Below, piece by piece: positions 32,847 to 56,935 of a stretch of 64,000 bases of DNA. Numbering within the stretch: position 1 is the stretch's first letter; every line of letters starts with the position of its first letter. The notes under the pieces are model-generated. The model had not been told where the DNA came from. It was given only the letters and a program-made list of their open reading frames with translations, and did not search any database. The DNA comes from a bacterium ADurb.Bin243. GTDB taxonomy: Bacteria; Muiribacteriota; UBA9980. The stretch lies in contig MWBZ01000013.1 in the NCBI GenBank assembly GCA_002069765.1, positions 1-64,000 on the forward strand. The letters are read 5' to 3'. The translations under genes were made by a program, and so were the position numbers.

Positions 32847-32902
32847 AAAAAAAATTAAACAATTTTATAAAAAAATTAAATAATTTTATAAAAAAATTAA
32901 AC
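32847..32902. repeat. AT-rich 21-bp tandem repeat in the leader of giant lipoprotein gene 1
   Basis: About 2.6 copies of an AAAAAAATTAAACAATTTTAT-like unit, 21 bases long (two helical turns), lie between the predicted -10 box and the ribosome binding site. The repeated A-runs are in helical phase and may bend the DNA or form a regulator site. Confidence 0.6.
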
Positions 32903-32909
32903 AGAACTT

Positions 32910-41500: not shown

Positions 41501-43385
41501 AAGAATCGGCCATATCAACGGCGAAGGCAACCGCGTTGAGCTCCGCGCTTTCTTTTATGAGTATGGGCTCTGAATAAAGATTGCCGACCGTTATTGCGGG
41601 TACGCTCCCATCGAGCGTATAACGGATCGAAGCGCCGGGCGTGGCCGTGGATATAGCTACAGTTTGAGCCCGGTTATAAGAACCGCCGGCGATATTGAAG
41701 CGCGGCGCGAAAACTTTCGGCGGCGGCGCCATAATACGGTAAGAAGCCTTCATGACGGAAGATTGTGAGCCATTCAAGACCGCGACGGCGTTTATTACCG
41801 CATTCGAATCAACTAAAAATTCTTTCTGATAAACCGTTCCGGCGCTCACTGAAGGCATCGAGCCGTCAGTAGTGTATCTGATAAAAGCGCCGGGCGTTTT
41901 AGTTACAAGCCCGACTTTTACGGCCTCTTCGTAGGTTCCTGCCGGCGGCTCGGCGATAGGAGCCGCTACTGAGGACGAACGCAGAATAACTACCTTCGAA
42001 GAGTCGGTCGTGGTTCTAATAATCTGTTGAGAGGTTTTTCCGTTTATACCGATAACCTTTTCGATCGAAAAACTAAAATCCTTGTCGGCCTGTTCTACAT
42101 CGGCGCGGGCGGCATATTCGGAATCGGATATTTTATAAACCGCCGCTTTACGGCCGAACATATAAACGACCGGAAGCGCCGCTAACGCCATATCGCTTTT
42201 AATACTTAGCGTAATCGTTTCGCCCGCGGCGGCCGACGACGGCGAAACGGAAACGGCCGTAATTTTGGGAGGATTCGAAACTGGTACCGCTGTAAATTTC
42301 GATTGAACGCTGTCTATAATTTTATTGGTAGAACGCGAATTAATAACCATTCCGCTTATATTAATAGAAGTGGTTAAATTGGGAACGATTTTAATTATTG
42401 AATCGTTTTTAACGCAGCCGGTAAAGCAGCTCAGCGTACCGCCTAAAAAACTGGTTTTCGATTTAAGAAGCGATGCGAGAGGTTTTTTATTATCTTTAGA
42501 TACGATGCTCGAATTAAAAACGGTATTTACCGTCGTAACCGCTTTCGAAAATTGATCGACGCTCGTCGAATCTTTAAACCAGGAGCCGACGACTTTTTGA
42601 ACGGTCGAAATATTTGTTATAGACGAATTTTTCGAAGAAAAGACCGGATTTTTTGATGTATCCTGACTGATAATCTTTTTTGCGGCCGATGAAAAAAAAT
42701 TGACGTTCGAGCTTATTTTATTTTCGATATTGGCCATCGAAAGAACGGTAGTCCGGCTGTTTAATTCAAAATCATTAATTAAAAGGTTTGTGAACCCGTA
42801 ATTAATAGCGCGCGAAACTTCTCCGGCGGATGGAACGCTCGAATCGGAAGTGAAAAAAGATTTATCGGGAAGGCATCCGAGCGGCGCCGAAAGCATAGCT
42901 ATACCTGTGCTTTTCTCCACCAGCGCGAGGGTGGCGTCAGGCGCGTTATCATTGATCGCAACGTTAATACTGTAATTCAACTTTCCGTTAGCGGCGTTTA
43001 ATTTATCGGAACTCGCGATAACGGCCCCCGAATTAACCAGCCGGACGAAGTCGCCCGCTTGTTGATAAGACGGCGCGTAAGCCGGACCGTTCATCGACGA
43101 TGCAGTCTCGGCCGCGAGCCCTCTTTGAAAATCCAGATATGATTTGTTTTCAAGCACTATGATCGAAAATTGCGATAAATCGCCTGACGGCGAAAGCGAC
43201 GAAGCGTCGATCCCGAGCGATATCGGATCGATTTCGCCTTCGAGCGTTATCGAAGGCCCGGACGCGGTTGCGTCTCCCGGAGCAGTCTGCGCTCCGCCGC
43301 CGCCTCCGCCGCAGCCGGAAAAAAATGACATAAATATTATTAACGCAATTAAAAATATTGAATTTATCGAATTTATTTTTTTCAT
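35583..43385 (-). CDS. Giant modular surface lipoprotein 2 with L-type-lectin-like tip
   Basis: About 2600 residues. I start at ATG 43385 (MKKINSINS) because GGAGG lies 7 bases upstream; a further ATG 24 bases upstream has no such site. Lipobox FFSGC, then a poly-Gly stretch. The N-terminal region and Ig-like module are related to giant lipoproteins 1 and 3. Three chitobiase/hexosaminidase-C-type repeats lie at about 475-725 ('GASIRYTLDGSVP' cores). A long series of Ig/beta modules follows, with three 'PVWxSGYP' modules at about 1723-2080. A fibronectin-like module precedes residues 2378-2600, which show L-type lectin hallmarks: 'GGGADGIIFMVTSHSP' and 'CFYVEFDTYRNAPYDSQ' (Asp and Asn ligand pattern). 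Inferred surface carbohydrate binder; sugar unknown. Confidence 0.85.
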   Translation of the reverse strand: MKKINSINSIFLIALIIFMSFFSGCGGGGGGAQTAPGDATASGPSITLEGEIDPISLGIDASSLSPSGDLSQFSIIVLENKSYLDFQRGLAAETASSMNGPAYAPSYQQAGDFVRLVNSGAVIASSDKLNAANGKLNYSINVAINDNAPDATLALVEKSTGIAMLSAPLGCLPDKSFFTSDSSVPSAGEVSRAINYGFTNLLINDFELNSRTTVLSMANIENKISSNVNFFSSAAKKIISQDTSKNPVFSSKNSSITNISTVQKVVGSWFKDSTSVDQFSKAVTTVNTVFNSSIVSKDNKKPLASLLKSKTSFLGGTLSCFTGCVKNDSIIKIVPNLTTSINISGMVINSRSTNKIIDSVQSKFTAVPVSNPPKITAVSVSPSSAAAGETITLSIKSDMALAALPVVYMFGRKAAVYKISDSEYAARADVEQADKDFSFSIEKVIGINGKTSQQIIRTTTDSSKVVILRSSSVAAPIAEPPAGTYEEAVKVGLVTKTPGAFIRYTTDGSMPSVSAGTVYQKEFLVDSNAVINAVAVLNGSQSSVMKASYRIMAPPPKVFAPRFNIAGGSYNRAQTVAISTATPGASIRYTLDGSVPAITVGNLYSEPILIKESAELNAVAFAVDMADSSVTTAYYDIDNSPLERVSAPVIRPAAGIYDKPQAVSISCATPGASIRYTLDGSVPSFSEGALYSSSFMLGKNTVINAIAFKDGMADSDISREVFEITGEVSIDTPSALSEIEPKIDGTAVNADFDLTVKAASGWRLTAAFSGVNVLNGAASVPAVNNLAVLPVNISKLIEGRTCEIKITAVGLAGDSKGELIVRVKKDTVAPRREKLSAVSSNAGGPSIAELGDRIVVSLSTDEPVKNLSASIMNKPVTIRNTDSRNWTIARYLDGSEDSVDFDFIVNFTDLAGNSVSYPLSKKDINEGEIPVIKKGPGNSSFNIFRKNGVNKLYLSAVPDAMEYCLDGVSEKTPVTWYSGAGADVDLSGISGVKYIFVRQKGISTSVQCLGKIIAAPAYGIDELKSNNRWAFDASSGSVILTNFNDGLNDLDESMFSIHIYSGSSTGDGTPVMQYYMDKVEPGYTGKVAVPSFIKSSWTGGEFVSFYLKSNNGTPYITEDDVYIQPAAGVSVKPAPLNSAAAGDMNFIYDGRSNQIVFQSGATAMSEITPLVSIAGKEIVRLNKPTVSGASRSYELPFQPSAWGEISIALEYKDGSVSGAAKFTVVEAPGNMAEGFGNFSVKALLGQIAVTNLDSGRDGYTAFASTDNGSSWKELGKISANVGQNFNITMTATSKIKLAMRDKNGNFSLTQQEGVSLLRAPVNAASGDKAFLILGHEKKLEVDNSNGSLNGFNLLYSLDGGAGWSSTEAVAGDGRQKISLPEFLRSGSEIKIALLEWKTGNASFASAGYVLKSANNITSGAAAGDYTVNAGMKKVSVNNADNLLNGNLVYINGMQAGKIGPDENTFSYLPGSSDEVELYYADLSGNTWLVSKSKPVLRPRNNKLADGDFFVNAFNGKITFKNSGGAVSGLTPLISTDGGLIWKDIGPALTAGDKEFSLTVNQGDKIAAVFMDSEGNTSSVSEVYNAAGPKLNSPVKMILAGDGGAGAKPGVIEESGKPAVTIRPGVTLKNGESIKVTLSNGGAVTMAARALIDGAAPVFGGTTPGVTYEAGAAGNGSITTGSFNLNNPGGTPVSIIGTVEVSAVHSDILGNVSPASKAYIAADIAPPVWVSGYPAVSAPAYFKLNAGLRINEDGKIYLVCLKSSEAAPTAAQIKAGQNASGAAVAAGMKAALDFTFDGGAVIREFTGLANNTEYSVYAVAEDLYENLQAQAAVVKMKTLNNISPVWASGYPKAAAPDFNKLSASVKMNETGSVYLACLKSGAAALSAAQVKAGADASGSALSASMKAVITMTAADSEAVHIFVGLESAVEYDIYAVAEDEYGESQANPTVVKIKTIDDLPPVWSSGYPQGQPTGYTSLRLSASVDKKSIVYAVCLSSNAPEPTVAQVIAGKNASDVELASNFKGTVEVAANTTGYINFANLGVGTPYDIYSAAVNEYGVAQTAVTKTRAYTIALVPPSVSSVETSADGTKILVKFNKTISSTLPAAPGGFTVTLGSSYNDAVTGVALNADDKSIVELTLTKTIYSDISSIKIAYTRGDSGVRCVEGLELSNFSARAVTNESNVAFPLAKFEIAASSPQKTGVEFAITVTAKDAGGNTVSLYDSSVYESATAVGLTNTTTSISPTITGNFTNGAWTGNVKISKAKNGDTITASKGAITTSVPPSFKVGLSPVAGLITSVGNAQVTLNWTNPADTVFTDIKISYTGPSSANMTTGNNTDTSKTITGLTNDGAAYTFTITTTDGTNDSVAVSKLATPTAGTIFSGNAVGLIKDASISGSEMILTPSIGAKNGVAVFKDKVDVTQNFTVNYTFDISAPFGGGADGIIFMVTSHSPSELAGYTPPGNGWLTSYINNCFYVEFDTYRNAPYDSQAHSISIKYPADQQAALGHSSLQSQQMAKKATWNPINTTTEFQGTHNVKTTYNASNGEWKIYYDDMTTAKITYTYKLSTSGITLVDGKYLYVGVSAATGGSWEKHSLTNLTISN

Positions 43386-43436
43386 TATCCAACCTCCATT
43401 AGAGTTCATTTATTAAAAATTTCACGCGCATAAAGG

Positions 43437-43464: not shown

Positions 43465-46400
43465 TCATCGCGCCATGAACTCCATCTTGTTGACGTTATA
43501 AAGCTTTCCGTTTACATCAGCCATAACGTAATACATGTCGTATTCAGCCCAGCGGGTCAGTTTAGTGAAGAGTATATGCTGATCCGCAGCCCAATAATCT
43601 GTACTGAATTCCGGTGGCTTGATAGCACCCTTATCCGGGGCCGCTTTTCCTTCCGCGTTCAATCCGTTTTTAATCTGCTCCGCAGAAGGGACTTTCGATC
43701 CTCTCGGCACCGCGACCGCGTAAACGGTTCCTGGCGAATTCAAGCTGACTCCCCAACGGCTTTGAGCATTCCAGTTGACTATAGAATACGGGTGGCCCGG
43801 AAGCATTATCGGCTCGAGTCCTCTGGTAATCTGATTACTTGAAGCTACAGATGAAACCATATTATTATCGCTCTCGATCGCCGCGAAAAAATAATATTGA
43901 GTAGATTCGGAAAGGCCGGAAACGGCTATGGTTTTTTCAGAATTCGCTTCAAGATCCAGCTCGCCTTTAAAACCATTAGCTACGGAGCCTCCGGAAGCGT
44001 CCGCGCCGTTTTTAAGCTGTTCGAGCGAAGGCGCGGAGGAATTTTTAGAAACTATATAATATGCCCTGCCGGAAGAGTCCGAACTGATTTTTACGCTCAT
44101 CGAATTTTTTGTAAGGCTGTTGGAATCATTTGGAATCGATATTTTAAGAATAGGCGACTTCCAGTTTATTTTGACTGGTTTATCCATCAAATTTCCATTC
44201 GCGTCTTCAGCCACAGCATAAAGAATGTAATTACTTTGTGGTTCCATTCCCGGCATATCCATATACATCATCATCATCGGATCGACCATCATCATATCTA
44301 TCGACTGCGTCATTTCAGTGCCGGCGGTCATGTCGATTTTCATCACGGAAGGCCTTGCACGGTAATAACTCCAACGCCCGTCCTTAACTTCAGTTGAAGT
44401 CGGCGGCGCCGGAACGGGCTCGAACGAATACAAATTGAAGCCTGATATATAAACCTTGCCGGCCTCGCCTGTTTTCACCCTGATATTAATTTTCATGCTG
44501 TAGCTTTCGCCGCTCTGTGAAGCCGCCGGATAACCAGACGAGAAGGCGATCCCCTTTGAAAGCGTCGTTACGCTGATTTTCTGGGGCTCTTTCTGCATTA
44601 TCATGTTCGAATCTTCGATAATCAGGAAAATGTCATATGCGCTGGAAACGTTTAATTCTTTGACTTCAAATGAAAGCTCGGTTGACGCGGTTATATCAAC
44701 CGCGCCGGAAGCCGTTTTAACTGCGCCATCAAAATTTCCGGCCTTTACGTTTGCGGCCGGCAACGAAGCTATGCCTGCGGAACCAGGAAAAACCATATAG
44801 TAAAGCTTTCCGCCACGGTCTGATTTCGCCGTGACTTTGAAGCTCGACGAAGACGACGCTTCGGCCTTTGGATAGCCAAGGCTCCATGATGGGCCTGAAG
44901 ATATTATGGTAAAAGGATTCCTGGACGGCGAAGTGGAGCGGTTGCCCACTTTATCTACCGCGCTTACGCTCACTTTTGCGGTGGAAAGATCTACCGAAGG
45001 CACTTTCCAGTCATAAGTTCCGCTGTTGGCCAGGCCGGTTTCAACTGTCGTCCAGTTAAGGCCGTTATAAAAAGCTATCGTTACAGGCGCAGGGTCCAGG
45101 CCGCCGGAATCGGAAGCTGACCATTTCAACGTATAGGTTGACCCGCCGATAAGCTTCTCTGCGCCGTCATTGAGAGAAAGCAAGGCGACCGCGGGCGGCG
45201 TGGTGTCTATCGAAAAAGTGTTTCCGCCCGTTATTTCTATTTTGCCGCCCATATCGTCCAGCAGACTGACAATAGCCGTGCCGTCGATAAAATCGACGCC
45301 GTTATTATCGTTTATGACATAATCATAGGTCCATATTTTTCTGCTGGCGCCCTGCGTCATCCATTTCTGCATAACATCAGCTTTTCCGGGCTGCTCGATG
45401 CTTATGCGCGGCCCCCCAGCGCCGGAATAATCATCTTTGAACACAGCCGTCACGGTCATTTTCCCAGCCCGGGCCGGATTGGAGCCGAACGTAAGAACCG
45501 CGTAATTCGCGACCGCCGTTCCTATAAGGAATGTCGAATTATAAGGGCGCTTTGAAATGTTTCCTGCCGCGTCGGTCACAGGCGAAAGTAAAACCATTGC
45601 CTTGCCGTCTTTGAATTCCTTCAGATCTGAAGATTTAACGGTGTATTCATAGGTCCAGACATCGGAAGAAGCGCCGCGCGTCATTACCGCGTCAACGAGC
45701 TCGTAGGAACCCTGCTGGAAGATCGAAATATAAGGCGCGCAACCCTCCTGCAATAATTCGGAATATTTCGCGGTAATCGTCAGTTTTCCGGCCGGGGCGG
45801 GATTTGAGCTGTACGAAAGTTCCACCGAAGGCATCCGGGTGTCTATGGTAAAAGTCCTGTTGGCGGGCTGTAAAAACAACCTGCCGGATTCGTCCATGGC
45901 GTTTGAGATGGAAACGCTCGCCTGGCCGTCGATATACGCCTGGCCGTCTTCGGGTTTTATCGAATACTCATAAGTCCAGACGCGGCGGCTCGAGCCTATA
46001 GCCATGGGCTGATCTTTAACGTCGCCGTAACCCGGCTGATCGATAAATATCTTCGGCGTCTGGCCTGTTTTTATGTCGTTAGCGAAAGAAACTATTACGG
46101 TCAGCTTCCCGGCCCTGAAAACATTGGCTTTCGAAGCGGCCGGGCTCCTGTCAGGCGCGCCCTTAGACATATTCTGCGAAACGGCGGGCGTGAAACTGTA
46201 ATTTATTGCAGCTGCCGGCGCGGATGTGTTTATGACAAACGAATCGTTCTGCGCGGCCTGCGAGACATTTCCGGCCGGATCGGATACGTCCGACAATTTA
46301 ACCGTGGCGACTCCGTCTATATAGGCTGAACCGTCAGCGGCCTTTACTGTATAATCGTAATACCAGCTGGCCGGATTGGATGAGTCCTGAGTCATGGCCG

Positions 46401-49400
46401 CTCCAGTAATGTCTGCGCTGCCGGGCTGATTAATGGATATTTTGGGTACGCTCCCCTTAGCGAGGGTTTCGGAATAAAAGGCCGTTATTCTCATAACGCC
46501 TTCTGCGGCTGGATTGGCGCTATATTTAAGAACGGCCGAAGGGCGGGTGGTATCTATTATAAAAGCTGCCGTCGTTTTCGAGCTCATATTGTTAGAGGAA
46601 TTCGCGGCGGTGACTTCCAGGATATAGCTGCCGTCATCCGTTATCTTAGTAGAATTGACTATAGCCGAAGGCTGATTTCCAAATTTAGTCAAAATCGCGG
46701 ATATTTTTGCGCCGTCAATTTCTTTCCAGAAAGGCGTCACGGCCGCGTTGTAATACTTTCCGTTTTCTACGCCGCTAACTTGAGGCGCGGCGGGACCTTT
46801 TTCAATCTTAACGCCGGTTCTCGTGAAATTGACTGAAGATTTTACCGAGAGACCGTTAGAAACTTTAACAACCGTCAGTTCAAGCGTATAAAAGCCGTCT
46901 TCGGTTATGGAATTGCCATTTTTATATTCTTCGGCGATGCCGCCTGTTTTAGATATTTTAGCCGAATATGAAAAGCCCTGATTTTCGATCCAGGTTGCCA
47001 TAGTGGCGGCGTCTTTTGAAACAATCGATATGGCCGGCGCTTCAGGGGCCGACCGATCGACGACAAAAGACAGAACGGTTTCATTTGAAAGGTCGTTGGC
47101 GCCGTAAGCCGTAACTGAAAGCATATATCTGCCATTTTCGGCCACGATAGAACCTTTAATGAAATCTACCGCCGAAGCCCCGTCTTTTGAAAGTTTCGCC
47201 CTGACGGAAACGCCGGATGGCTCTTCCCATAAAGGCTTAACGGGAGAATTATAAATTTTCAGATTTTCTACGCCGGAAACGCGAGGCGTCTCAGGAATGC
47301 TTTTATTGATTATAAAAGATTTAGAAGATTTACTGGAAAGGCCGTTAGAAACTTTATACGCGGTAACTTCTATTTTGTAAGAACCGTCTTCAAGCAATGT
47401 AGTGCCGCTTGCGAAGGCCCTCGGGCTTCGGCCGTCGCGATAAATTAAAGCGGCAGTTTTAACACCTTCCTGCGTTTTCCATTCAATGGAAACCGGCTTA
47501 GGGGTTGTCGATCCGGTTTCGACGCCTAATATAACAGGCTCTTCAGGCGGATTTTTATCGATCGTAAAATTTAACGCCGTCTTAGATTTCAAGCCGTTAG
47601 ACAGCTTCGTCGCGGTCACCTCGAGAACATAACGGCCGTTTTCCGTTATCGGAAAACCGTTGCCGTAACTGGTTATAACATCATCGTTCTTCTTTATCGA
47701 AGCGGAATAGTAAACGCCTGCGATTTCCTTCCAGGAAAGGCTCAGGGTCGAAGCCGAAACGCCATCAGGTGAAATGCCTTCGATAACAGGGACCGCGGGA
47801 AGCGAAGTGTCGACTTTAAATGAAATGGCGGCCCTGTTGGTTAATCCGTTCGATTCCTTCCTGGCGGTCACTTCAATATCGTAAGACCCGTCGTTCGAAA
47901 TTTTTGAACCGTTAACGAATTCTATAGGGTTTCCGCCATTTTTCGTAAGCCTGGCGTAATAAGAAACGCCGGGTTCCTCCTGCCATGAAACGGCCGCTTC
48001 CTTTGAATTGACCGAACCCGCAACGACGCCAGTGAATTTAGGGGCTAAAGGGCCGGCGTCGAAGCCATCCGGCATTCTGCTAAAACGCATGGACGATTTA
48101 CTCTGCATGCCATTTTTTGTTTTAACGGCCGTAACTTCTACAAAGTATTTGCCTTCCTCGTTTATGGGAGAGTCTTTCTGGTATGAAACCGATTCCACGC
48201 CATTTTTTGAAATTGTAGCGCTTGTCACGCATCCTTCCTGCTCGTTCCAACCTACCAGCGTGGGCCCGTTTATGGGCTGTTTTATAAGGCCGCCATAAGA
48301 AGGGGCCGGCGCGCCTCCGCCGGAGCCGTTTTTAAGCTCTATAACAGGGGAAGCCGGCGATTTTTTATCGATCCTAAATTTGACAGCGGATTCGCTCGTA
48401 AGGCCGTTGGCTTTTATCGCGGTGACCGCGATTCTGTAATCTCCGTCCACGCTGACGGGAGACGCGCTTAGATAATCATTTAAAGCGCCGGATTCTTTGA
48501 CTATAAATGCCTTGTAAACGATTCCAGGCTGAAGCTGCCACGCGGCGCTTACCGCATAACCATAAACGCCGCCGTCGGTTATGCCGCTAATGACGGGCGC
48601 GTCAGGTTTTTTTCTATCGATCGTAAAATAAATAGTCTTCTTATTTGAAGTTTTTGTAACAGGATTGGTTACACTTAATTCAAAGGCGTAAGCGCCTTCT
48701 TCTACGAGCTTCGCGCCTTTTTTGTATTCCCGGGCGGCAGAGCCGTCTCTGGAAATTTTCGCCGTGATAGACATCGATTCTACATCGTCCCATGATATTT
48801 CAACGTCTTTAGCTATTGAATCGCCTTCGCTGATCCCTTTTATAACAGGAACCGCCGGAGCCGATCTGTCGATTTTGAATTTTTTTGAAACACTCGCCGT
48901 TTTACCGTTAGCTTCCCTCGTAGCTACTACTTCGAGATAATAGGTTCCTTCGACGGTTATAGGCGAACCGTTTTCATAAGCCAGAGTCATGGTACCGTCT
49001 TTTACAAGTTTGGCCGAATATTTGACGCCCTCGGATTTCTGCCAGTATAATTTAACGTCGTCCGCCGTTACCATTCCATTTTCTATTCCCATTATATATG
49101 GAGCGTCGGGAGCTTTGGTATCCACGGTAAACTTGATTTTAGAAGAAGCGCTCAAACCGTTCAATAGTTTTTTAGCGGTAACTTCCAGTTCATATTCTCC
49201 GTCCTCGGCCACCGCCGAATTTTTTTCATACGCAGTTTCCTGGCGCTGAGTTTCATTTACATTAACATTGCTTCTCAAGTTATAAAAACGGTAAAAATAA
49301 AACTGATAATATAACGGGTCGTGATAATCTCCAGGATACATGCCCATTCCCGGATACATCCCCGGATAACCGGGAAAGTAATGGCTATCAGAGTTAGATT

Positions 49401-52400
49401 TGTTTAATTGCCCTGTTTTAGTGAGTTTAGCGGTAGTTTCACAGCCGTTTTGCTCGTTCCATGAAATCTTAGCTTCGGCCGCGGTTACCGCGCCATCGTT
49501 AATGCCCGCGATCACAGGGGCATAAGGGCCCTTTTTATCTATAGTAAACGAAATAACGCTTTTAGCCGAAAGCCCGGTCGCGGGATCGACGGCTTCTACC
49601 TCAGCTAAAAAAGACCCTTCGTCTTTTATAATCGCGCCTTTTTTATACTCCAGAAACTCTCCGCCGCTTCGTTTCAGCCTTGCCGAAACTATAGCGCCTT
49701 CGATCTCTTTCCAGCCGAGCGATACGTCGGAGCCTGTAACCGCTCCATTTTCAACGCCCGTTACTTGCGGGGATTTCGGCCCCAATACCAGCCCGGTTAA
49801 AGTACGATTAAAAGAAGCCTTCGAAACGATTTCAGTTTTCGTATCCTTGCGTCTGGCCGTTACAGTAACCGTATAAATGCCTTTCTCGCTAACCGGCGTT
49901 TCACGAATGTAAGATGAAGGCGCACCGTCGTCCCTGGACAATGTAGCAAAATATTCGATTTTATCCTGTTCTTCCCAGCTTATGCTTGTCATGCCCTTGC
50001 CGTTATCGTAAATGGAAATAACCGGCGCATCCGGGGCGTACCTGTCGATTACAAAAGAAAGTTTTGAGGATTTTTTTCGGCCATTCGGCTTTGCCGCCGT
50101 GAGGGTTACGACATAACTGCCGTTAGCGTTAATTAAAGTATTTTTAACATACGGTTCAAACCGGCCTGAATCTTTTGAAATTTCGGCTGTAATAGTAGTT
50201 TTCTTTAAACCGCCTGTTTTAGAAAGTCCGGCCGCGCCAGGTTGATTTACGATATCTTCCCATGAAATTCTTACTTCGGAAGAAGTTACCGCGCCGTCAG
50301 CCACGCCAGAAATTACAGGCGCATCGGGTTCGGCCTTATCGATCTCGAATTCTATAGAGCGGCTGTTCAAAGCGCCGCCGGCATTGTTTTTAGCGTAAAG
50401 AGTCAGTTTATAAAAACCCGATTCGGATATAAGCGCCTTTTTGATATATTCGACTGGTTCTCCGCCGTTTTTGGAGAGCTTGGCGGTAAGAGTCACCCCG
50501 TCGATATCCTTCCACTCCAGGGCGACATCTTCGGAAACTATATCGTCGTTATAAACGCCTGTAATGTAGGGCACATCGGGCAAAGCAGAATTCACTGCGA
50601 ACGATATCGACGAAAACGCAGTAACGCCGTTTCTTTCATTTGTAGACAAAAGTTCCAGCGTATATTCGCCGTCTTCGTTTATTTCATAACCGCTTACGTA
50701 ATCCGATTTCAACCCGTTTTTTTTAACCAGCTTAGCAGTGCTTTTCGTCCAGCGTTCGTCCTGCCAAAAAAGCGTTACCGGCTTTGCGGAAACTTCACCA
50801 GTGCCGATTCCCAATATGGCAGGCACCGCCGGCAAACTTTTATCGATAACGAATGACAAAGAAGCCTTATTAGAAGTATTGTTCGCGGTTTTAGTAACGC
50901 CGACTTCGAGCGTATAAGAACCTTCTTCGGATAAAATCGTGTTTTTAGAATATTCAGAATTTTGATTATTCTTTAACAGGCGTGCCTTACTCGTAACGCC
51001 TTCCTGCTCATTCCACGAAAGCGAAACATCTTTAGCGGTGATGGCGCCGTCATTTATGCCAAGTATAACCGGAGGAGCCGGCGGGGCGTTATCGTTTTTA
51101 ATCTCATAAAACTCTGAAACCACTTCAGAATCGAGCATATTCTCTTTCACCGCGACCGCCTTCAGGGTAGTCGATTGAGCGAGAGTTATGGGCTCGGAAT
51201 AAACCACTCCGTTAGAAGCGGAAGGCGTTGTTCCGTCGGTAGTGTATATTATTTTAGCGCCTTTGGCCTGCGCGATTATCTTAACTTGAAACCGATTGTA
51301 ATTAGAGTATTTTCCACCCTGAGGATAAAAAACCGGCGGCGCGGCGTTTTCGAGTACCGGGCCTACTATATTAACATCATAAAAACCGCTGACGACGGCC
51401 GAATCCTGCATACCGTCATTAATTACGACAGCCTTTAAGGTTACGGGCTCCATAATAACGATAGGCGCGGTGTAAACCATGCCGTTCGTAAATGACGGAA
51501 CTGTACCGTCGAGAGTATATTTAATGGTCGCGCCGTTTAACGAGCTTACTATCGCTACGGTCTGTCTTGATATAAACTTGCCCGGCGCCGGGTTAAAAAC
51601 AGCGGCAGGGGCCGTAACGACGGGCGCTTTAACAACATATACCGCCTGATTCACTATTGATGAAGCCGCGTCTTTTACCGCCACCGCTTTTATGGTGGTA
51701 TCGGCCGAAACTATTACCGGCGAGGAAAAAATCGTGCCGTTGGAAGCCGACGGCTCGCTGCCGTCTATAGTGTAGTAAATATCAGCGCCTGGAGTGCGCG
51801 AAGCCATCGTCACGACCTTCGACATTTTATAAACGCCGGTCGGCGGGTCGAAAACAGGCGGATATATAGAAGTAATACCGTCATTGATAACGGGCTTTTT
51901 ACCGTCGGTCACATCGGTTACTGGCGGTGATGTCTTGCCGTTTTCGCCGACGAGATTGTCTATTTTGAAGGTCACGTCTTTTGGATCAGAATCGCTAACG
52001 GTAGTATTTGCAACATAAGTCGTGCCGTCGATTTTAGTGACGGTCACTTCACGGTCATAAATCACTACTTTAGGCGGAAATATAAGAAGCTTACTAGTGG
52101 TAAACGCGAGCTGCAATTCATCTCCGACATTTAGCGTTCTGGGCGTAATCGTAACTGAAGTAACCGAAGGCGGCGCGTCATCTGCATTTACGCCGGCATT
52201 TTTAGCGCTTCCGTCGACGACCGCTACGCTCGTGCGGCCGTCTATCTTGGTGCCGGCTATTTCTATGCTCGTATTGATCGAAAGGTCCGAGGCCTTCTGT
52301 TGCACCTTTGCGTTCTTAAGCGTAAGCACGTAATCGGATATTACGCCCGACGCGCTTGGCACGACGCTTTTCTCACGTGTATTTTCGAATATCGAATGTT

Positions 52401-53172
52401 TTTCGGCCGCGCTGAGTTCAGCGGTTACAAGCACGGTCTTAATAGCGTCAACCGCCTTGGACATTTCACGTATTACATCCGCCCCTCCGACTTTGTTTTC
52501 AATAACCAAATCGGTGAGAGTTTTTTCTTTAGCGCTAAGTACGCGAACTACAACTTCCTGCGACTGCTCGTTGCTGCCGAGCGTTATCAGGGGAACGGTT
52601 ATTTCCATTTTATTATCATTGGCAAGAACCGCGCGCGCGGTTGACTCGGAATTGATAAGAACGCCTTTAACGTAAAGTTTTTTAACGTCTTTAGGAATCT
52701 CAGAATATGCCGGTACCTGACCCGGAATGCTCGACAGGACTACCTTATTCAATATCTTACTCTTGATTGCTATAAACGGCGTCTTTTTACCGGTTTCTAT
52801 ATTGATCGTCGTTTTGTACTTATACCTGTACTGCACGTCGTCGCTCGCTTCGATGACCACCGGCGCAAGCTCTTTCGACATCGATGGATCGTCCCGGTCT
52901 ATAACGGCTATACTGAATTCTTTCAAATCGCCGAATTCGGCGGCGCGTTCGATTCCCGACGGCGCGCCCGGAACGGGAACTGTTGTATTTTCAGCTATAT
53001 CGTTTGGAATGGGACCTTCGATTATCATCTGCTTTTCGGCAACGCCGGTCTGAGTTCCACCGCCGGGAACAGCCGAGCTTCCGCCGTCGCCGCAACCGGA
53101 AATAATAAAAAATGTGAATAAAGAAAAAATCAATGCAACCAAAAAATAATGATTACGAGACATTTTACGCAT
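43465..53172 (-). CDS. Giant modular surface lipoprotein 3 with 17 tandem 85-residue repeats
   Basis: 3235 residues. Lipobox IISGC (Cys27). Residues 30-330 are the N-terminal region shared with giants 1 and 2 ('EGPIPNDIAEN', 'IENKVGGADVIREMSKAVDA'), followed by an Ig-like module and three chitobiase/hexosaminidase-C-type repeats (about 437-687). From about 695 to 2205 there are 17 tandem repeats of roughly 75-100 residues. Their pattern is P-x-x-P-x-I-x-G-I-x-x-G ... W ... L-x-K ... G-x-Y-x-L-x-V-x-A ... F-x-I-D, a beta-sandwich-like period. Four roughly 105-residue repeats ('ISIEQPGKADVMQKWMTQ' type) cover 2205-2650, then further Ig-like and 'SGYP' modules. No enzyme motif. ATG 53172 with GGAG at 8 bases. 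It lies directly downstream of a three-gene sensor operon. Inferred stalk-like surface protein or adhesin. Confidence 0.85.
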   Translation of the reverse strand: MRKMSRNHYFLVALIFSLFTFFIISGCGDGGSSAVPGGGTQTGVAEKQMIIEGPIPNDIAENTTVPVPGAPSGIERAAEFGDLKEFSIAVIDRDDPSMSKELAPVVIEASDDVQYRYKYKTTINIETGKKTPFIAIKSKILNKVVLSSIPGQVPAYSEIPKDVKKLYVKGVLINSESTARAVLANDNKMEITVPLITLGSNEQSQEVVVRVLSAKEKTLTDLVIENKVGGADVIREMSKAVDAIKTVLVTAELSAAEKHSIFENTREKSVVPSASGVISDYVLTLKNAKVQQKASDLSINTSIEIAGTKIDGRTSVAVVDGSAKNAGVNADDAPPSVTSVTITPRTLNVGDELQLAFTTSKLLIFPPKVVIYDREVTVTKIDGTTYVANTTVSDSDPKDVTFKIDNLVGENGKTSPPVTDVTDGKKPVINDGITSIYPPVFDPPTGVYKMSKVVTMASRTPGADIYYTIDGSEPSASNGTIFSSPVIVSADTTIKAVAVKDAASSIVNQAVYVVKAPVVTAPAAVFNPAPGKFISRQTVAIVSSLNGATIKYTLDGTVPSFTNGMVYTAPIVIMEPVTLKAVVINDGMQDSAVVSGFYDVNIVGPVLENAAPPVFYPQGGKYSNYNRFQVKIIAQAKGAKIIYTTDGTTPSASNGVVYSEPITLAQSTTLKAVAVKENMLDSEVVSEFYEIKNDNAPPAPPVILGINDGAITAKDVSLSWNEQEGVTSKARLLKNNQNSEYSKNTILSEEGSYTLEVGVTKTANNTSNKASLSFVIDKSLPAVPAILGIGTGEVSAKPVTLFWQDERWTKSTAKLVKKNGLKSDYVSGYEINEDGEYTLELLSTNERNGVTAFSSISFAVNSALPDVPYITGVYNDDIVSEDVALEWKDIDGVTLTAKLSKNGGEPVEYIKKALISESGFYKLTLYAKNNAGGALNSRSIEFEIDKAEPDAPVISGVADGAVTSSEVRISWEDIVNQPGAAGLSKTGGLKKTTITAEISKDSGRFEPYVKNTLINANGSYVVTLTAAKPNGRKKSSKLSFVIDRYAPDAPVISIYDNGKGMTSISWEEQDKIEYFATLSRDDGAPSSYIRETPVSEKGIYTVTVTARRKDTKTEIVSKASFNRTLTGLVLGPKSPQVTGVENGAVTGSDVSLGWKEIEGAIVSARLKRSGGEFLEYKKGAIIKDEGSFLAEVEAVDPATGLSAKSVISFTIDKKGPYAPVIAGINDGAVTAAEAKISWNEQNGCETTAKLTKTGQLNKSNSDSHYFPGYPGMYPGMGMYPGDYHDPLYYQFYFYRFYNLRSNVNVNETQRQETAYEKNSAVAEDGEYELEVTAKKLLNGLSASSKIKFTVDTKAPDAPYIMGIENGMVTADDVKLYWQKSEGVKYSAKLVKDGTMTLAYENGSPITVEGTYYLEVVATREANGKTASVSKKFKIDRSAPAVPVIKGISEGDSIAKDVEISWDDVESMSITAKISRDGSAAREYKKGAKLVEEGAYAFELSVTNPVTKTSNKKTIYFTIDRKKPDAPVISGITDGGVYGYAVSAAWQLQPGIVYKAFIVKESGALNDYLSASPVSVDGDYRIAVTAIKANGLTSESAVKFRIDKKSPASPVIELKNGSGGGAPAPSYGGLIKQPINGPTLVGWNEQEGCVTSATISKNGVESVSYQKDSPINEEGKYFVEVTAVKTKNGMQSKSSMRFSRMPDGFDAGPLAPKFTGVVAGSVNSKEAAVSWQEEPGVSYYARLTKNGGNPIEFVNGSKISNDGSYDIEVTARKESNGLTNRAAISFKVDTSLPAVPVIEGISPDGVSASTLSLSWKEIAGVYYSASIKKNDDVITSYGNGFPITENGRYVLEVTATKLSNGLKSKTALNFTIDKNPPEEPVILGVETGSTTPKPVSIEWKTQEGVKTAALIYRDGRSPRAFASGTTLLEDGSYKIEVTAYKVSNGLSSKSSKSFIINKSIPETPRVSGVENLKIYNSPVKPLWEEPSGVSVRAKLSKDGASAVDFIKGSIVAENGRYMLSVTAYGANDLSNETVLSFVVDRSAPEAPAISIVSKDAATMATWIENQGFSYSAKISKTGGIAEEYKNGNSITEDGFYTLELTVVKVSNGLSVKSSVNFTRTGVKIEKGPAAPQVSGVENGKYYNAAVTPFWKEIDGAKISAILTKFGNQPSAIVNSTKITDDGSYILEVTAANSSNNMSSKTTAAFIIDTTRPSAVLKYSANPAAEGVMRITAFYSETLAKGSVPKISINQPGSADITGAAMTQDSSNPASWYYDYTVKAADGSAYIDGVATVKLSDVSDPAGNVSQAAQNDSFVINTSAPAAAINYSFTPAVSQNMSKGAPDRSPAASKANVFRAGKLTVIVSFANDIKTGQTPKIFIDQPGYGDVKDQPMAIGSSRRVWTYEYSIKPEDGQAYIDGQASVSISNAMDESGRLFLQPANRTFTIDTRMPSVELSYSSNPAPAGKLTITAKYSELLQEGCAPYISIFQQGSYELVDAVMTRGASSDVWTYEYTVKSSDLKEFKDGKAMVLLSPVTDAAGNISKRPYNSTFLIGTAVANYAVLTFGSNPARAGKMTVTAVFKDDYSGAGGPRISIEQPGKADVMQKWMTQGASRKIWTYDYVINDNNGVDFIDGTAIVSLLDDMGGKIEITGGNTFSIDTTPPAVALLSLNDGAEKLIGGSTYTLKWSASDSGGLDPAPVTIAFYNGLNWTTVETGLANSGTYDWKVPSVDLSTAKVSVSAVDKVGNRSTSPSRNPFTIISSGPSWSLGYPKAEASSSSSFKVTAKSDRGGKLYYMVFPGSAGIASLPAANVKAGNFDGAVKTASGAVDITASTELSFEVKELNVSSAYDIFLIIEDSNMIMQKEPQKISVTTLSKGIAFSSGYPAASQSGESYSMKINIRVKTGEAGKVYISGFNLYSFEPVPAPPTSTEVKDGRWSYYRARPSVMKIDMTAGTEMTQSIDMMMVDPMMMMYMDMPGMEPQSNYILYAVAEDANGNLMDKPVKINWKSPILKISIPNDSNSLTKNSMSVKISSDSSGRAYYIVSKNSSAPSLEQLKNGADASGGSVANGFKGELDLEANSEKTIAVSGLSESTQYYFFAAIESDNNMVSSVASSNQITRGLEPIMLPGHPYSIVNWNAQSRWGVSLNSPGTVYAVAVPRGSKVPSAEQIKNGLNAEGKAAPDKGAIKPPEFSTDYWAADQHILFTKLTRWAEYDMYYVMADVNGKLYNVNKMEFMAR

Positions 53173-53519
53173 CTTACCAACTCCATTATTTAAATTTTAT
53201 TTGTTTATTTTTACTTACAAAAACAAAATAGGATGAACAATATATGAAGATATTATCCAAAGTATAATTAGCGGCTTAACGAAAAGAATGTCGAGCTTTA
53301 TATATTTTTTAACGCTCAATAAAAAGCGTTTTTCGCTCAACACCAATATTTTATCAGAGTTATTTTAATGAAAATCAATAATCATGACTCTTCAAAATTA
53401 AAATAATTTATAAAATACATAAGACGTATTATATAACAAATAATTTGCAATTTTATTGCGCATTTATCGCATTTTAATTGCATTTTAATTGTATTTTTAT
53501 TGCATTGTGAGGAAGAGAT
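53173..53519. other. Regulatory-looking gap between response regulator gene and giant gene 3
   Basis: 347 AT-rich bases without a gene. It holds an array of six 11-bp direct repeats (53445-53510) and an AACGCT/AGCGTT hairpin at about 53311-53330. A possible -10 (TAATAT on the minus strand, 53250-53255) has no recognisable -35 box, 78 bases upstream of the giant gene start. Confidence 0.6.
53445..53510. promoter_or_regulatory. Array of six 11-bp direct repeats (possible OmpR-type regulator sites)
   Basis: Six consecutive units on the plus strand: TTGCAATTTTA / TTGCGCATTTA / TCGCATTTTAA / TTGCATTTTAA / TTGTATTTTTA / TTGCATTGTGA. The TTG (once TCG) recurs exactly every 11 bases, starting at 53445, 53456, 53467, 53478, 53489 and 53500. 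OmpR/PhoB-family regulators bind tandem direct repeats spaced about 11 bp. The adjacent gene encodes such a regulator, and the next gene downstream is giant lipoprotein 3. Confidence 0.6.
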
Positions 53520-54251
53520 TTAAGAAGAAGTTTCTACCGCTTCAAAATTTATAGTATAGCCTATTTTGGAAATATTTACGATAAGGGTTTCATAAGGCGC
53601 GATTTTTTTTCGCAGCCTCGAAATATGCGGTGGAAGGCCGTTTGATTCGATAATATTATTTTTCCAGACGATATCGATAAGTTCTTCGCCGGCGATAACG
53701 CGCCCGGGATTCATGACTAGAGTTTTAAAAAGGGCAAGCTCAGTATAACTCAACTGGTTTTTTCTTCCGTTGGAAACTATTTTTCCCGATTCGAAATCCA
53801 CTTCCAATTTTTTAAACTTAAATTTTTTAAGCGGCTTTTTGTTTGAAGCTCCGCGGTTATTAACGTAACGCTTGACTACCGCTTTTATTCTGGATTTGAG
53901 TTCGAGAAGTGAAAAAGGCTTTGAAACGTAATCATCGGCGCCGAGTTCAAGACCGGCGACCCGGTCAGTTTCTTTATTTTGCGATGAAAGAACTATAACA
54001 GGAACGTTAACCGCGAAAGCTCTCATACTTTTTAATAAATCGAATCCAAGGCCGTCGGGTAAAACGATATCCAGAATGATAACGTCAAAATTATAAGCCG
54101 AGATAAAATTATCTCCGAGACATGCGGCCGCTTCGTTCAGCGAACACACGCGGCGAGCCTGCCAGCCTTCGGCCTCGAATACTCTGATAAGCCCGTCTGA
54201 AAGCAAATCATCATCATCTATGATTAAAATTTTATATTTATTATTTATCAT
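53520..54251 (-). CDS. OmpR/PhoB-family response regulator
   Basis: About 243 residues. Receiver domain with acidic pocket ILIIDDDDLLSDG, phospho-acceptor Asp in 'DVIILDIVLPDGLGFD', Ser/Thr in PVIVLSSQ and Lys in DYVSKPFSL. A winged-helix output domain (about 150-240) has 'LSYTELALFKTLVMNPGRVI', 'LPPHISRLRKKIAPYE' and a terminal hairpin 'IVNISKIGYTINFE'. Start taken at ATG 54251; a TTG eight codons upstream (54272) is possible. It is the last gene of the sensor operon, and an 11-bp repeat array follows 10 bases after its stop codon. Confidence 0.9.
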   Translation of the reverse strand: MINNKYKILIIDDDDLLSDGLIRVFEAEGWQARRVCSLNEAAACLGDNFISAYNFDVIILDIVLPDGLGFDLLKSMRAFAVNVPVIVLSSQNKETDRVAGLELGADDYVSKPFSLLELKSRIKAVVKRYVNNRGASNKKPLKKFKFKKLEVDFESGKIVSNGRKNQLSYTELALFKTLVMNPGRVIAGEELIDIVWKNNIIESNGLPPHISRLRKKIAPYETLIVNISKIGYTINFEAVETSS

Positions 54252-54299
54252 CTTATCAACACGTTCTTTCAAAAAAACTTAGATAATACCTTATCGAAA

Positions 54300-55721
54300 C
54301 TAATCCTGCCACAGCGGCATGGTAAGTTTCACTTCCGTCCCGTTTCCCGGCGAACTCGTTATCCGCATAGCGCCGCCGTTAAGTTCGGCGAACTCCCTGC
54401 AGATCAATAATCCAAGGCCCGTTCCGGTTTCGCCGGCGGTCCCTTTTGAAATATGATTATACCTGTCGAAGTTAAAAATACCGTCAACAACCTCGCTTTT
54501 CATTCCGACGCCGTTATCTTTTACTATAACCGCGGCCGTGTCTTTTTCAACTGCCGCGGCAATTATTATTTCGCCGCCGGCATTTGTAAACTTAATCGCG
54601 TTATTGACCAGATTTCTAAGTATGGTAGAAAACATTCGGCGGTCGGCGCGAAACCCGATATCGGAAACAATATGGTTTTTAATGAATATATTTTTCTGGC
54701 GAGCTCTTAATTCAAGGATTTTCATCACTTCTAAAACGATCTCGCTCACAGTCACGCGCGAAGGATTACATTCGATATTACGCGTCTGGGCCTTCGCCCA
54801 TTCAAGCAGATTTTCGAGCAGCGCGGCGACGCCGTGCGAAGTTTTTTTCAATAATTTCAGATCCGCGGCGATTTCCGGCGGAATATCGCGTTCGCCGCCC
54901 ATAGCGGATAGTAATGATGCCATGCCATCGACCGGATTTCTTAAATCATGGGAAATTATAGAAATAAATTTTGCCTTTGCCGCATCGCTTTTTTCCAGTT
55001 TTGATATGTTTTTACGAAGAATATCTTCGCTTTCTCTGAGGCTATCTTCCAATCTTAAATTGAGCATTAAAAGAAAGATCGTATAAGAGCCGACAAAATA
55101 TAAATTTATGAAAATAAGCGTTAAAACATATAAATCTTTTTCAATCCCTTCTTTTGCGCTCATCATATTAAACGAGAGCGGACCGTCATGCAAAATAAAA
55201 ACAACGGCCCTGAATAAAAAAAATAAAGAGATTGATAGGTAAATAAGCGCCGCCACACGGCCTGTGCTTTTTATCGAAGTTATATCGTTGTAAAAAAATA
55301 ATACATGAAAAAGGTGGTAAAACAAAGCAAAATGAAGCGCGCAAATAAACGCCAGCCTGATTTTTAAATATTGCGGCGATATAAAAGTAGTGTGATACAC
55401 CACGATAAAAACCGCGGCGATCAGCGCGGCATAATAACCCGGCACGGTGCGAAGGCCGATAAAATTTTTAATCCCGAAGGTCAATAAAGCGACCCCGGCG
55501 GCAGTTACGCTATTGGCCAGAACTATAGAAATAAAAGGCGTGGTAAAGTTTTGCGATGAAAACAACATCAGAGCTATCGAAATGACTACAAAGCTCATGC
55601 CGAGCTGAATAGTGCCGTCATACCTCTTTTTTATATGGCTGAAATATAAAAACATTATGCCGAGCAAAAAGCCTTCGATAAACGATAAAAGCAGTAATGT
55701 TCTTAAATCGAGAGATACCAT
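54300..55721 (-). CDS. 7TM-type sensor histidine kinase
   Basis: 473 residues. Seven hydrophobic helices fill residues 5-225 ('LLLLSFIEGFLLGIMFLYF' first, 'VGSYTIFLLMLNLRL' last) with little periplasmic loop, so sensing may be in the membrane. A short coiled coil follows. HisKA has the phospho-acceptor in KFISIISHDLRNPVDG. The ATPase domain has N-box 'NLVNNAIKFTNAGGE', VKDNGVGM and ETGTGLGLLICREF. It sits between a receiver-kinase gene (25-base gap) and the OmpR-type regulator (48-base gap), its likely partner. A decayed paralogue lies at 33008-33530. Confidence 0.9.
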   Translation of the reverse strand: MVSLDLRTLLLLSFIEGFLLGIMFLYFSHIKKRYDGTIQLGMSFVVISIALMLFSSQNFTTPFISIVLANSVTAAGVALLTFGIKNFIGLRTVPGYYAALIAAVFIVVYHTTFISPQYLKIRLAFICALHFALFYHLFHVLFFYNDITSIKSTGRVAALIYLSISLFFLFRAVVFILHDGPLSFNMMSAKEGIEKDLYVLTLIFINLYFVGSYTIFLLMLNLRLEDSLRESEDILRKNISKLEKSDAAKAKFISIISHDLRNPVDGMASLLSAMGGERDIPPEIAADLKLLKKTSHGVAALLENLLEWAKAQTRNIECNPSRVTVSEIVLEVMKILELRARQKNIFIKNHIVSDIGFRADRRMFSTILRNLVNNAIKFTNAGGEIIIAAAVEKDTAAVIVKDNGVGMKSEVVDGIFNFDRYNHISKGTAGETGTGLGLLICREFAELNGGAMRITSSPGNGTEVKLTMPLWQD

Positions 55722-55746
55722 AATTAATAAAACCTTTTTCCGTAAT

Positions 55747-56829
55747 TTATCCGGCGAAAGTGAAAGAAAATTCGCTTCCTTCGCCTAATTTACTTTTGAC
55801 CGATATTTTTCCGCCGCAAACGGCGGCGAGGTCTTTGCATATCATAAGCCCTACGCCCGAACCCTTTTCCTTCATCGTACCGGCGGTCGAAAGCACCTCG
55901 CGGCTTTCCATTATTCGTGAAATCATAGCCGGATCCATGCCTATGCCAGTATCTTCAACGCTGATCGTAATTAAAGCGCCTTCTATAGACGCCTTTACGC
56001 AAATAAAACCCGAAGCGGTAAATTTTAACGCGTTACGAATAAAGTTTCTGACGATTATCTCGATCAGGCGACTGTCAGCGGTAATTTCAATATCATCTGA
56101 AAAATCAGATTTTATAACTATATTTTTATCTGAAGCGTATGCGCCGTAATCGCCGATACAGCGGTCTATCAATGATTTTAAAGTGAATTTTTCGCGGCGC
56201 ACCGACGCGCCGGAGCTCTGTAATACCGACCATTGCAGTAAATTTTCCATTAAATCGGTAACCGACGATATTGAATTTTTAATTTTTTTAAAGCTATCGC
56301 TGAAATACGGAGAAGTTTCACCGAGTTCCTTTTCGAGCATCTGCGTATAAAGCGCAAGATTGCCAACCGGCCCTCGCATGTCATGAGAAAGTATCGATAA
56401 AAGCCGGTCTTTCCAGACGCTTAAAGCCGCGAGCCGGTCGGACGCGATTTTTGATTCAAGATGCGCCCTGACGCGCGATTTAACTTCGCGAGGGTTGAAC
56501 GGCTTTGAAATATAATCTATTCCCCCGCTGTCGAAACCGCGCTCTATGCTTTCGGCGTCGTTGAGAGAAGTTATGAAAATAACCGGGATAAAAGCCGAAG
56601 CAGGATCGTTTTTAATTTTTTTACATAACTCGAAACCGTCCATGCCGGGCATTAATACATCTAGAAGTATAATATCGGGCGTGTCCGCTTTGATCGCGTC
56701 GACGGCTTCGTTTCCGTTTAAAGCCACGCTGAATCGGATTTCTTCGATTTGCGACAATATTTTTTTGAGAGCGGCCGCATTAATCGGCTGATCGTCGACA
56801 ATTAATACGTGAGCTGCCTGGAATTCCAA
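55747..56829 (-). CDS. Response regulator receiver-histidine kinase fusion
   Basis: About 360 residues, cytoplasmic. The N-terminal receiver domain has VLIVDDQPIN, phospho-acceptor 'IILLDVLMPGMDGFE' and 'YISKPFNPREV'. A HisKA domain follows (LLSILSHDMRGPVGNL, with His), then an ATPase domain (NFIRNALKFTASG, VEDTGIGMD, 'EKGSGVGLMICKDLA'). Receiver-first kinases of this kind are usually phosphorylated by, or feed, another kinase in a phosphorelay. I choose TTG at 56827-56829 because GGAGG lies 12 bases upstream; the longer frame from 56853 would place this site inside the gene. It is the first gene of the sensor operon, with a strong promoter. Confidence 0.86.
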   Translation of the reverse strand: MEFQAAHVLIVDDQPINAAALKKILSQIEEIRFSVALNGNEAVDAIKADTPDIILLDVLMPGMDGFELCKKIKNDPASAFIPVIFITSLNDAESIERGFDSGGIDYISKPFNPREVKSRVRAHLESKIASDRLAALSVWKDRLLSILSHDMRGPVGNLALYTQMLEKELGETSPYFSDSFKKIKNSISSVTDLMENLLQWSVLQSSGASVRREKFTLKSLIDRCIGDYGAYASDKNIVIKSDFSDDIEITADSRLIEIIVRNFIRNALKFTASGFICVKASIEGALITISVEDTGIGMDPAMISRIMESREVLSTAGTMKEKGSGVGLMICKDLAAVCGGKISVKSKLGEGSEFSFTFAG

Positions 56830-56873
56830 AATATTGTAAAACCTCCGTTTCAATAGATATTAACAACTGGTTT

Positions 56874-56902
56874 ATTTTATCAGAATATGTCCGATTTGTC
56901 AA
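56874..56902 (-). promoter_or_regulatory. Promoter of the three-gene sensor operon
   Basis: On the minus strand: TTGACA (56897-56902), 17-base spacer, TAAAAT (56874-56879) preceded by TGA (extended -10). Confidence 0.75.
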
Positions 56903-56935
56903 AATAATCGCACGAAAATCGCAAGTTATTTTAAT

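Follow-up and report, generated by a model that had tools for sequence, protein, structure and literature searches.

A six-copy 11-bp repeat array as a probable OmpR/PhoB-family operator upstream of two giant lipoprotein genes in bacterium ADurb.Bin243

Between the gene for an OmpR/PhoB-family response regulator and the gene for a lipoprotein of 3235 residues, the genome of bacterium ADurb.Bin243 carries six 11-bp direct repeats in exact register. We judge it probable, at about three chances in four, that this array is the multi-copy operator of the adjoining regulator, which when phosphorylated would activate a two-gene operon of giant lipoproteins. The array, a -10 hexamer, the spacing between them, their conservation, the family of the regulator and synteny were all read from sequence. 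A sequence-only reading had already proposed that the regulator controls the giant protein through an OmpR/PhoB-type site. That proposal gains from a sister species, where the array, its position and its 11-bp distance to the -10 hexamer are kept; no second such array occurs in either genome, and the regulator belongs to the expected family.

The window analysed here is the stretch of 64,000 nucleotides at positions 1 to 64,000 of contig MWBZ01000013.1. All genes of the locus lie on the minus strand, in the order hybrid kinase, membrane kinase, regulator, array, giant gene 1, giant gene 2. The features are as follows.

35583-43409, minus strand: giant lipoprotein gene 2, 2608 aa, with a legume-lectin-like C-terminal domain below the Pfam cut-off
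43465-53172, minus strand: giant lipoprotein gene 1, 3235 aa, the proposed target, with chitobiase C-terminal-like, Fn3-associated and Ig-like repeats
53173-53421, minus strand: predicted 249-nt leader of the giant-gene transcript, with a stem-loop near 53300-53345
53428-53433, minus strand: proposed -10 hexamer TATAAT, lacking a -35 partner, 11 bp from the array edge
53445-53510, minus strand: six 11-bp direct repeats, the proposed regulator-binding site upstream of giant gene 1
53520-54251, minus strand: OmpR/PhoB-family response regulator, 243 aa (Response_reg and Trans_reg_C)
54300-55721, minus strand: membrane sensor histidine kinase, 473 aa, the probable partner kinase (HisKA and HATPase_c)
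55747-56853, minus strand: receiver-histidine kinase hybrid, first gene of the regulator operon (Response_reg, HisKA and HATPase_c), start codon uncertain
56874-56902, minus strand: sigma70-type promoter of the regulator operon, TTGACA-17-TAAAAT (TTGACA-17-TATAAT in the sister species)
56909-56924, minus strand: weak candidate two-copy site, TTGCGATTTTC-GTGCG, conserved, in the gap between the regulator operon and an Fe-ADH gene

The array and the giant-gene promoter

Read on the plus strand, each unit of the array consists of a TTGCAT-like core and five AT-rich base pairs. The units are TTGCAATTTTA at 53445, TTGCGCATTTA at 53456, TCGCATTTTAA at 53467, TTGCATTTTAA at 53478, TTGTATTTTTA at 53489 and TTGCATTGTGA at 53500, so the recurrence of TTG or TCG at these six positions, noticed earlier, is confirmed in exact 11-bp steps. 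The centre-to-centre spacing is that of OmpR/PhoB-type direct-repeat operators, with six units here and four in the sister species. Nine base pairs separate the array end at 53510 from the regulator stop codon at 53520. Tandem Repeats Finder reports only 53469-53506, at period 11, which is the right-hand and more regular part of the array.

The period-11 self-match of the array, 41 of 55 positions, is the top value in the window, where the runner-up reaches 31. Stretches of the same genome totalling 237 kb served as background for periodicity, and their highest score was 29. Dinucleotide shuffles of the intergenic region never attained 41 (0 of 5000; maximum 34 at period 11), nor did shuffles scored at every period from 7 to 21 (0 of 1000; maximum 36). 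Across 301 kb of the genome the array is the strongest 11-bp periodicity, and the only run of six TYG trinucleotides, for periods of 7 to 15, is the array itself.

On the strand of the giant gene, the -10-like hexamers nearest to the array are TATAAT here and TATATT in the sister species (L004 1352-1357). Both stand 11 bp from their arrays and both are preceded by TGTT; no -10-like hexamer lies close to the regulator-side end of the array in either species. With a 17-bp spacer, the -35 position falls inside the array and reads ATAAAA here (3/6) and ATGACG in the sister (4/6). The earlier remark that the best -10 box has no -35 partner therefore holds, and with a poor -35 in both species the giant-gene promoter looks weak without help. 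A site over the -35 region, about 10-12 bp from the -10, together with a poor -35, is the layout of a class II activator-dependent sigma70 promoter.

Transcription of the giant gene is predicted to start near 53421, with the start of giant gene 1 about 250 nt beyond. The 150 bp before its start codon are also partly conserved with the sister species, so the gene may have a second, closer promoter. The leader contains nested hairpins at 53306-53345 (GAGCG/CGCTT and AACGCT/AGCGTT), a possible attenuator or terminator. A structured RNA leader was rejected as an explanation: the leader matched no Rfam family, and its fold z-score of -2.3 stems from the simple hairpins.

Giant gene 2 follows giant gene 1 after a gap of 55 bp and is probably the second gene of the target operon, sharing the array promoter. 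The sequence-only reading, which named giant gene 1 as the target, had missed this second giant gene. Two other repeats were seen in the window. Directly before the start codon of a third giant gene (27759-32825), a 21-bp AT-rich repeat, AAAAAAATTAAACAATTTTAT, is present in 2.7 copies (32848-32903), with a period of about two helical turns. At 2185-2660, a 239-bp unit occurs in two tandem copies that match at 92%.

The regulator and its operon

The regulator has the receiver and winged-helix Trans_reg_C domains that define the OmpR/PhoB family, scoring 80.6 bits for Response_reg (cut-off 30.2) and 49.2 bits for Trans_reg_C (cut-off 26.2). It matches structures of the family over its full length, among them RegX3, PhoP, PmrA and KdpE. 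A predicted structure (mean pLDDT 84, pTM 0.57), good within the domains and uncertain in their relative orientation, was used for fold confirmation only; its fold matches DNA complexes of KdpE, PhoP, PmrA and VbrR, with KdpE-DNA at the top. The receiver has the expected active-site residues: D13, D61 and K111 are the same in all 13 aligned regulators, and D14 is present in at least 90%. In the region of the recognition helix, residues 201-218, the two species share 14 of 18 residues. The genome encodes five Trans_reg_C proteins, this regulator included.

Three genes make up the regulator operon, the regulator coming last, and the operon promoter lies about 3.4 kb upstream of the array. The sequence-only reading had added that the operon perhaps controls itself. 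This found no support, and autoregulation through the array was rejected as the main reading: the operon has its own near-consensus promoter far upstream, no three-copy array is found at that promoter in either genome, and the array lies downstream of the regulator gene, the last of the operon. The near-consensus promoter there, set against a giant-gene promoter that lacks a -35 box, suggests that the regulator operon is basally expressed and the giant operon activator-dependent.

What the regulator-operon promoter region does hold is the conserved two-copy candidate. In both species TTGCGATTTTC-RTGCG keeps an 11-bp distance to the -35 of the Fe-ADH/GH64 genes, which are divergently oriented, and 56909-56924 could possibly be a second site of the regulator, statistically a weak candidate. 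Control matches turn up about as often as such pairs do, and the stretch is conserved anyway, for which reasons we treat the site only as a lead.

Conservation and occurrence elsewhere

Conservation was assessed in three genomes of the genus: this one, a sister species (G001) and a third genome, G002, which is 76% complete. The whole locus is present in G001 with the same gene order. Its array, between the regulator and the giant gene at L004 1369-1412, has four copies in exact 11-bp steps: TTGCATCGTCA at 1369, TTGCATCATCA at 1380, TTGCATTTTTA at 1391 and TTGCATTTTTC at 1402. The core TTGCAT is perfect in all four; the spacers and the copy number differ from those of ADurb.Bin243. An invariant core with varied spacers and copy number is the pattern expected of selection on binding sites. 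A hairpin followed by a T-run (minus strand) lies between the regulator stop codon and the array in G001, which places the array there at the head of the downstream transcription unit.

The third genome has no close regulator, no array and no close relative of the giant protein (best 30% identity). A profile search of genome contigs with the regulator alignment returned distant regulators only (best 33% identity) and no further orthologues. Loss of the repeat from relatives that keep both genes had been named as evidence that would speak against the proposal; G001, the only relative found to have both genes, keeps the repeat.

Identity to G001 is 59% for the regulator, 58% for the kinase and 63% for the hybrid kinase, about 82 and 75% for the giant proteins and 85-98% for flanking genes. 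The three two-component genes (53520-56853, compared with L051) are thus 58-63% identical between the species, and their neighbours on both sides about 75-98%, which indicates that the signalling genes are changing much more quickly than the genes around them. In G001 the first gene behind the array promoter (L004 902-1315, minus strand) encodes an orphan receiver with no other domain (Pfam Response_reg, 37 bits). The acidic pair is missing from it, and Glu appears to occupy the phosphoacceptor position and Ile that of the active-site Lys. No remnant of this receiver gene was found in the giant-gene leader of ADurb.Bin243.

Pattern searches covered whole genomes. Searched genome-wide with up to three mismatches allowed, the 26-mer TTGCATTTTAATTGCATTTTAATTGC matches at the array locus only. 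The pattern TTGCAT-N5-TTGCAT-N5-TTGCAT, with up to two mismatches, finds the array, the orthologous sister site and one further place common to both genomes; with one mismatch, it has one further match among 39 genomes of the phylum, inside an open frame in G037. These occurrences led us to reject a regulon. Similar runs at many unrelated places, which had been named beforehand as evidence against the proposal, are absent, and the array is unique in both genomes.

Two observations from these searches are recorded separately. An identical 28-mer, TTGCATACTGGTTGCACCTCCGTTGCCT, is found in both genomes (L021 1072-1099 and L022 1501-1528) and fits the three-copy pattern in part; it had no Rfam match, and the open frames overlapping it are short only. 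In G020, which belongs to another family within the phylum, 11-bp direct repeats, TGTTACAAAGC TGTTACAAAAG (L009 2176-2200), lie behind a different OmpR-type regulator gene and ahead of a further gene on its strand; the layout parallels that of the array, with another core sequence.

Known systems, alternative explanations and mechanism

Published sites of ArcA, KdpE and PHO/PhoP agree with the earlier statement that tandem 11-bp repeats are the binding geometry of OmpR/PhoB regulators. KdpE recognizes 6-bp half-sites that begin with TT and have 5 AT-rich bp between them (PMC3264566). Its site at kdpFABC in E. coli resembles the array in its TT-led 6-bp half-sites and 11-bp period (PMC3264566), but has two half-sites, TTTATA and TTTACA, where the array has six TTGCAT-like ones, and serves another target and signal. 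The PHO box of E. coli PhoB and the related PhoP boxes are likewise made of 11-nucleotide direct repeat units, with seven conserved and four less conserved bases, and are bound head to tail (PMC4415409). Unlike the array, they have a basic site of just two units, whose core is CTGTCAT or GTTCACC, and their targets are phosphate genes. With its TTGCAT core and giant lipoprotein targets, the array does not belong to a Pho regulon.

The position of the array has its counterpart in class II PhoP boxes, which lie about 12 nt from the -10 and overlap the -35 (PMC3335776). The architecture I PhoP box of Salmonella mgtA and phoP sits over the -35 for class II activation, as the array would (PMC3335776). 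Half-site orientation matters for PhoP activation at such a distance (PMC3335776); it is established for the PhoP box, a single box of two half-sites, whereas a monomer may read the TTGCAT/ATGCAA of the array in either direction. As regards copy number, E. coli ArcA sites contain two to five 11-bp repeats, most having three to five elements predominantly 11 bp apart (PMC3798270). Like the array, they have more repeats than the two a dimer needs (PMC3798270). With six copies the array goes beyond what is reported for ArcA, but it is a site of the same kind. ArcA, however, is a global regulator with many sites and no fixed promoter position, whereas the array occurs at a single locus and at a fixed distance from the -10.

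The regulator might bind the array and repress the giant operon, or act both ways depending on the units filled. ArcA, whose sites are similar arrays, is a repressor of many operons, at which it occludes RNA polymerase (PMC3798270); occupancy of an array that adjoins the promoter could also block the enzyme. We consider this unlikely, since the promoter, with no -35 here and a weak one in the sister, looks weak without help, and since the array leaves the -10 uncovered in both species. The regulator might instead be a bystander, with a different DNA-binding protein on the array. We infer binding by this regulator, and the genome has four other members of the family; nevertheless, its adjacency to the array is conserved, the array occurs only beside it in both species, and no comparable 11-bp array is present at the other OmpR/PhoB-family regulator loci of the genome. 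A bystander role is, in our estimate, quite improbable.

The units are also AT-rich, with A-runs on the strand of the giant gene and a near-helical period, as would suit an AT-rich upstream element or phased A-tract acting by DNA bending or by contact with the alpha subunit of RNA polymerase, with no specific regulator involved. Two of the four spacers in the sister (CGTCA and CATCA) are free of A-runs and TTGCAT is present in all four copies, so it is the core that is conserved, and we give this explanation very little weight. Adjacent units resemble one another as recent duplications would, which might point to a functionless tandem repeat produced by chance or slippage. This we find scarcely credible: the shuffles fell short of the array score, the invariant core amid changing spacers and copy number counts against plain slippage as it does against phased A-tracts, and the orthologous array keeps an identical distance to the -10.

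Activation by the adjoining regulator, the reading we prefer, would begin with the membrane kinase, possibly together with the hybrid kinase, phosphorylating the regulator on Asp61. Phosphorylated dimers would then fill the half-sites head to tail on one helix face, one monomer per 11-bp unit, so that six units could take three dimers. The proximal copies would stand in for the absent -35 box and bring sigma70 RNA polymerase to the -10 hexamer at 53428-53433 (minus strand). Giant gene 1 would be switched on, and giant gene 2 would follow by read-through over the 55 bp. Binding, phosphorylation, activation as the direction of control and co-transcription of giant gene 2 are the inferred parts of this scheme. 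In a more elaborate version, which we regard as unlikely, the system would be dedicated to this single target, the giant operon would have its dose response set by the number of repeats (six here, four in the sister), and the degenerate Glu receiver behind the array promoter of the sister would feed back on the regulator or kinase.

The mechanism is ordinary and its principle already known; what is new is this case of a regulator, an array and a target. It offers a concrete, testable link among the three, in which a dedicated two-component system probably controls two giant surface lipoproteins. With six in-phase half-sites at a single locus, it is suited to studying how copy number relates to cooperative activation by OmpR/PhoB-family regulators.
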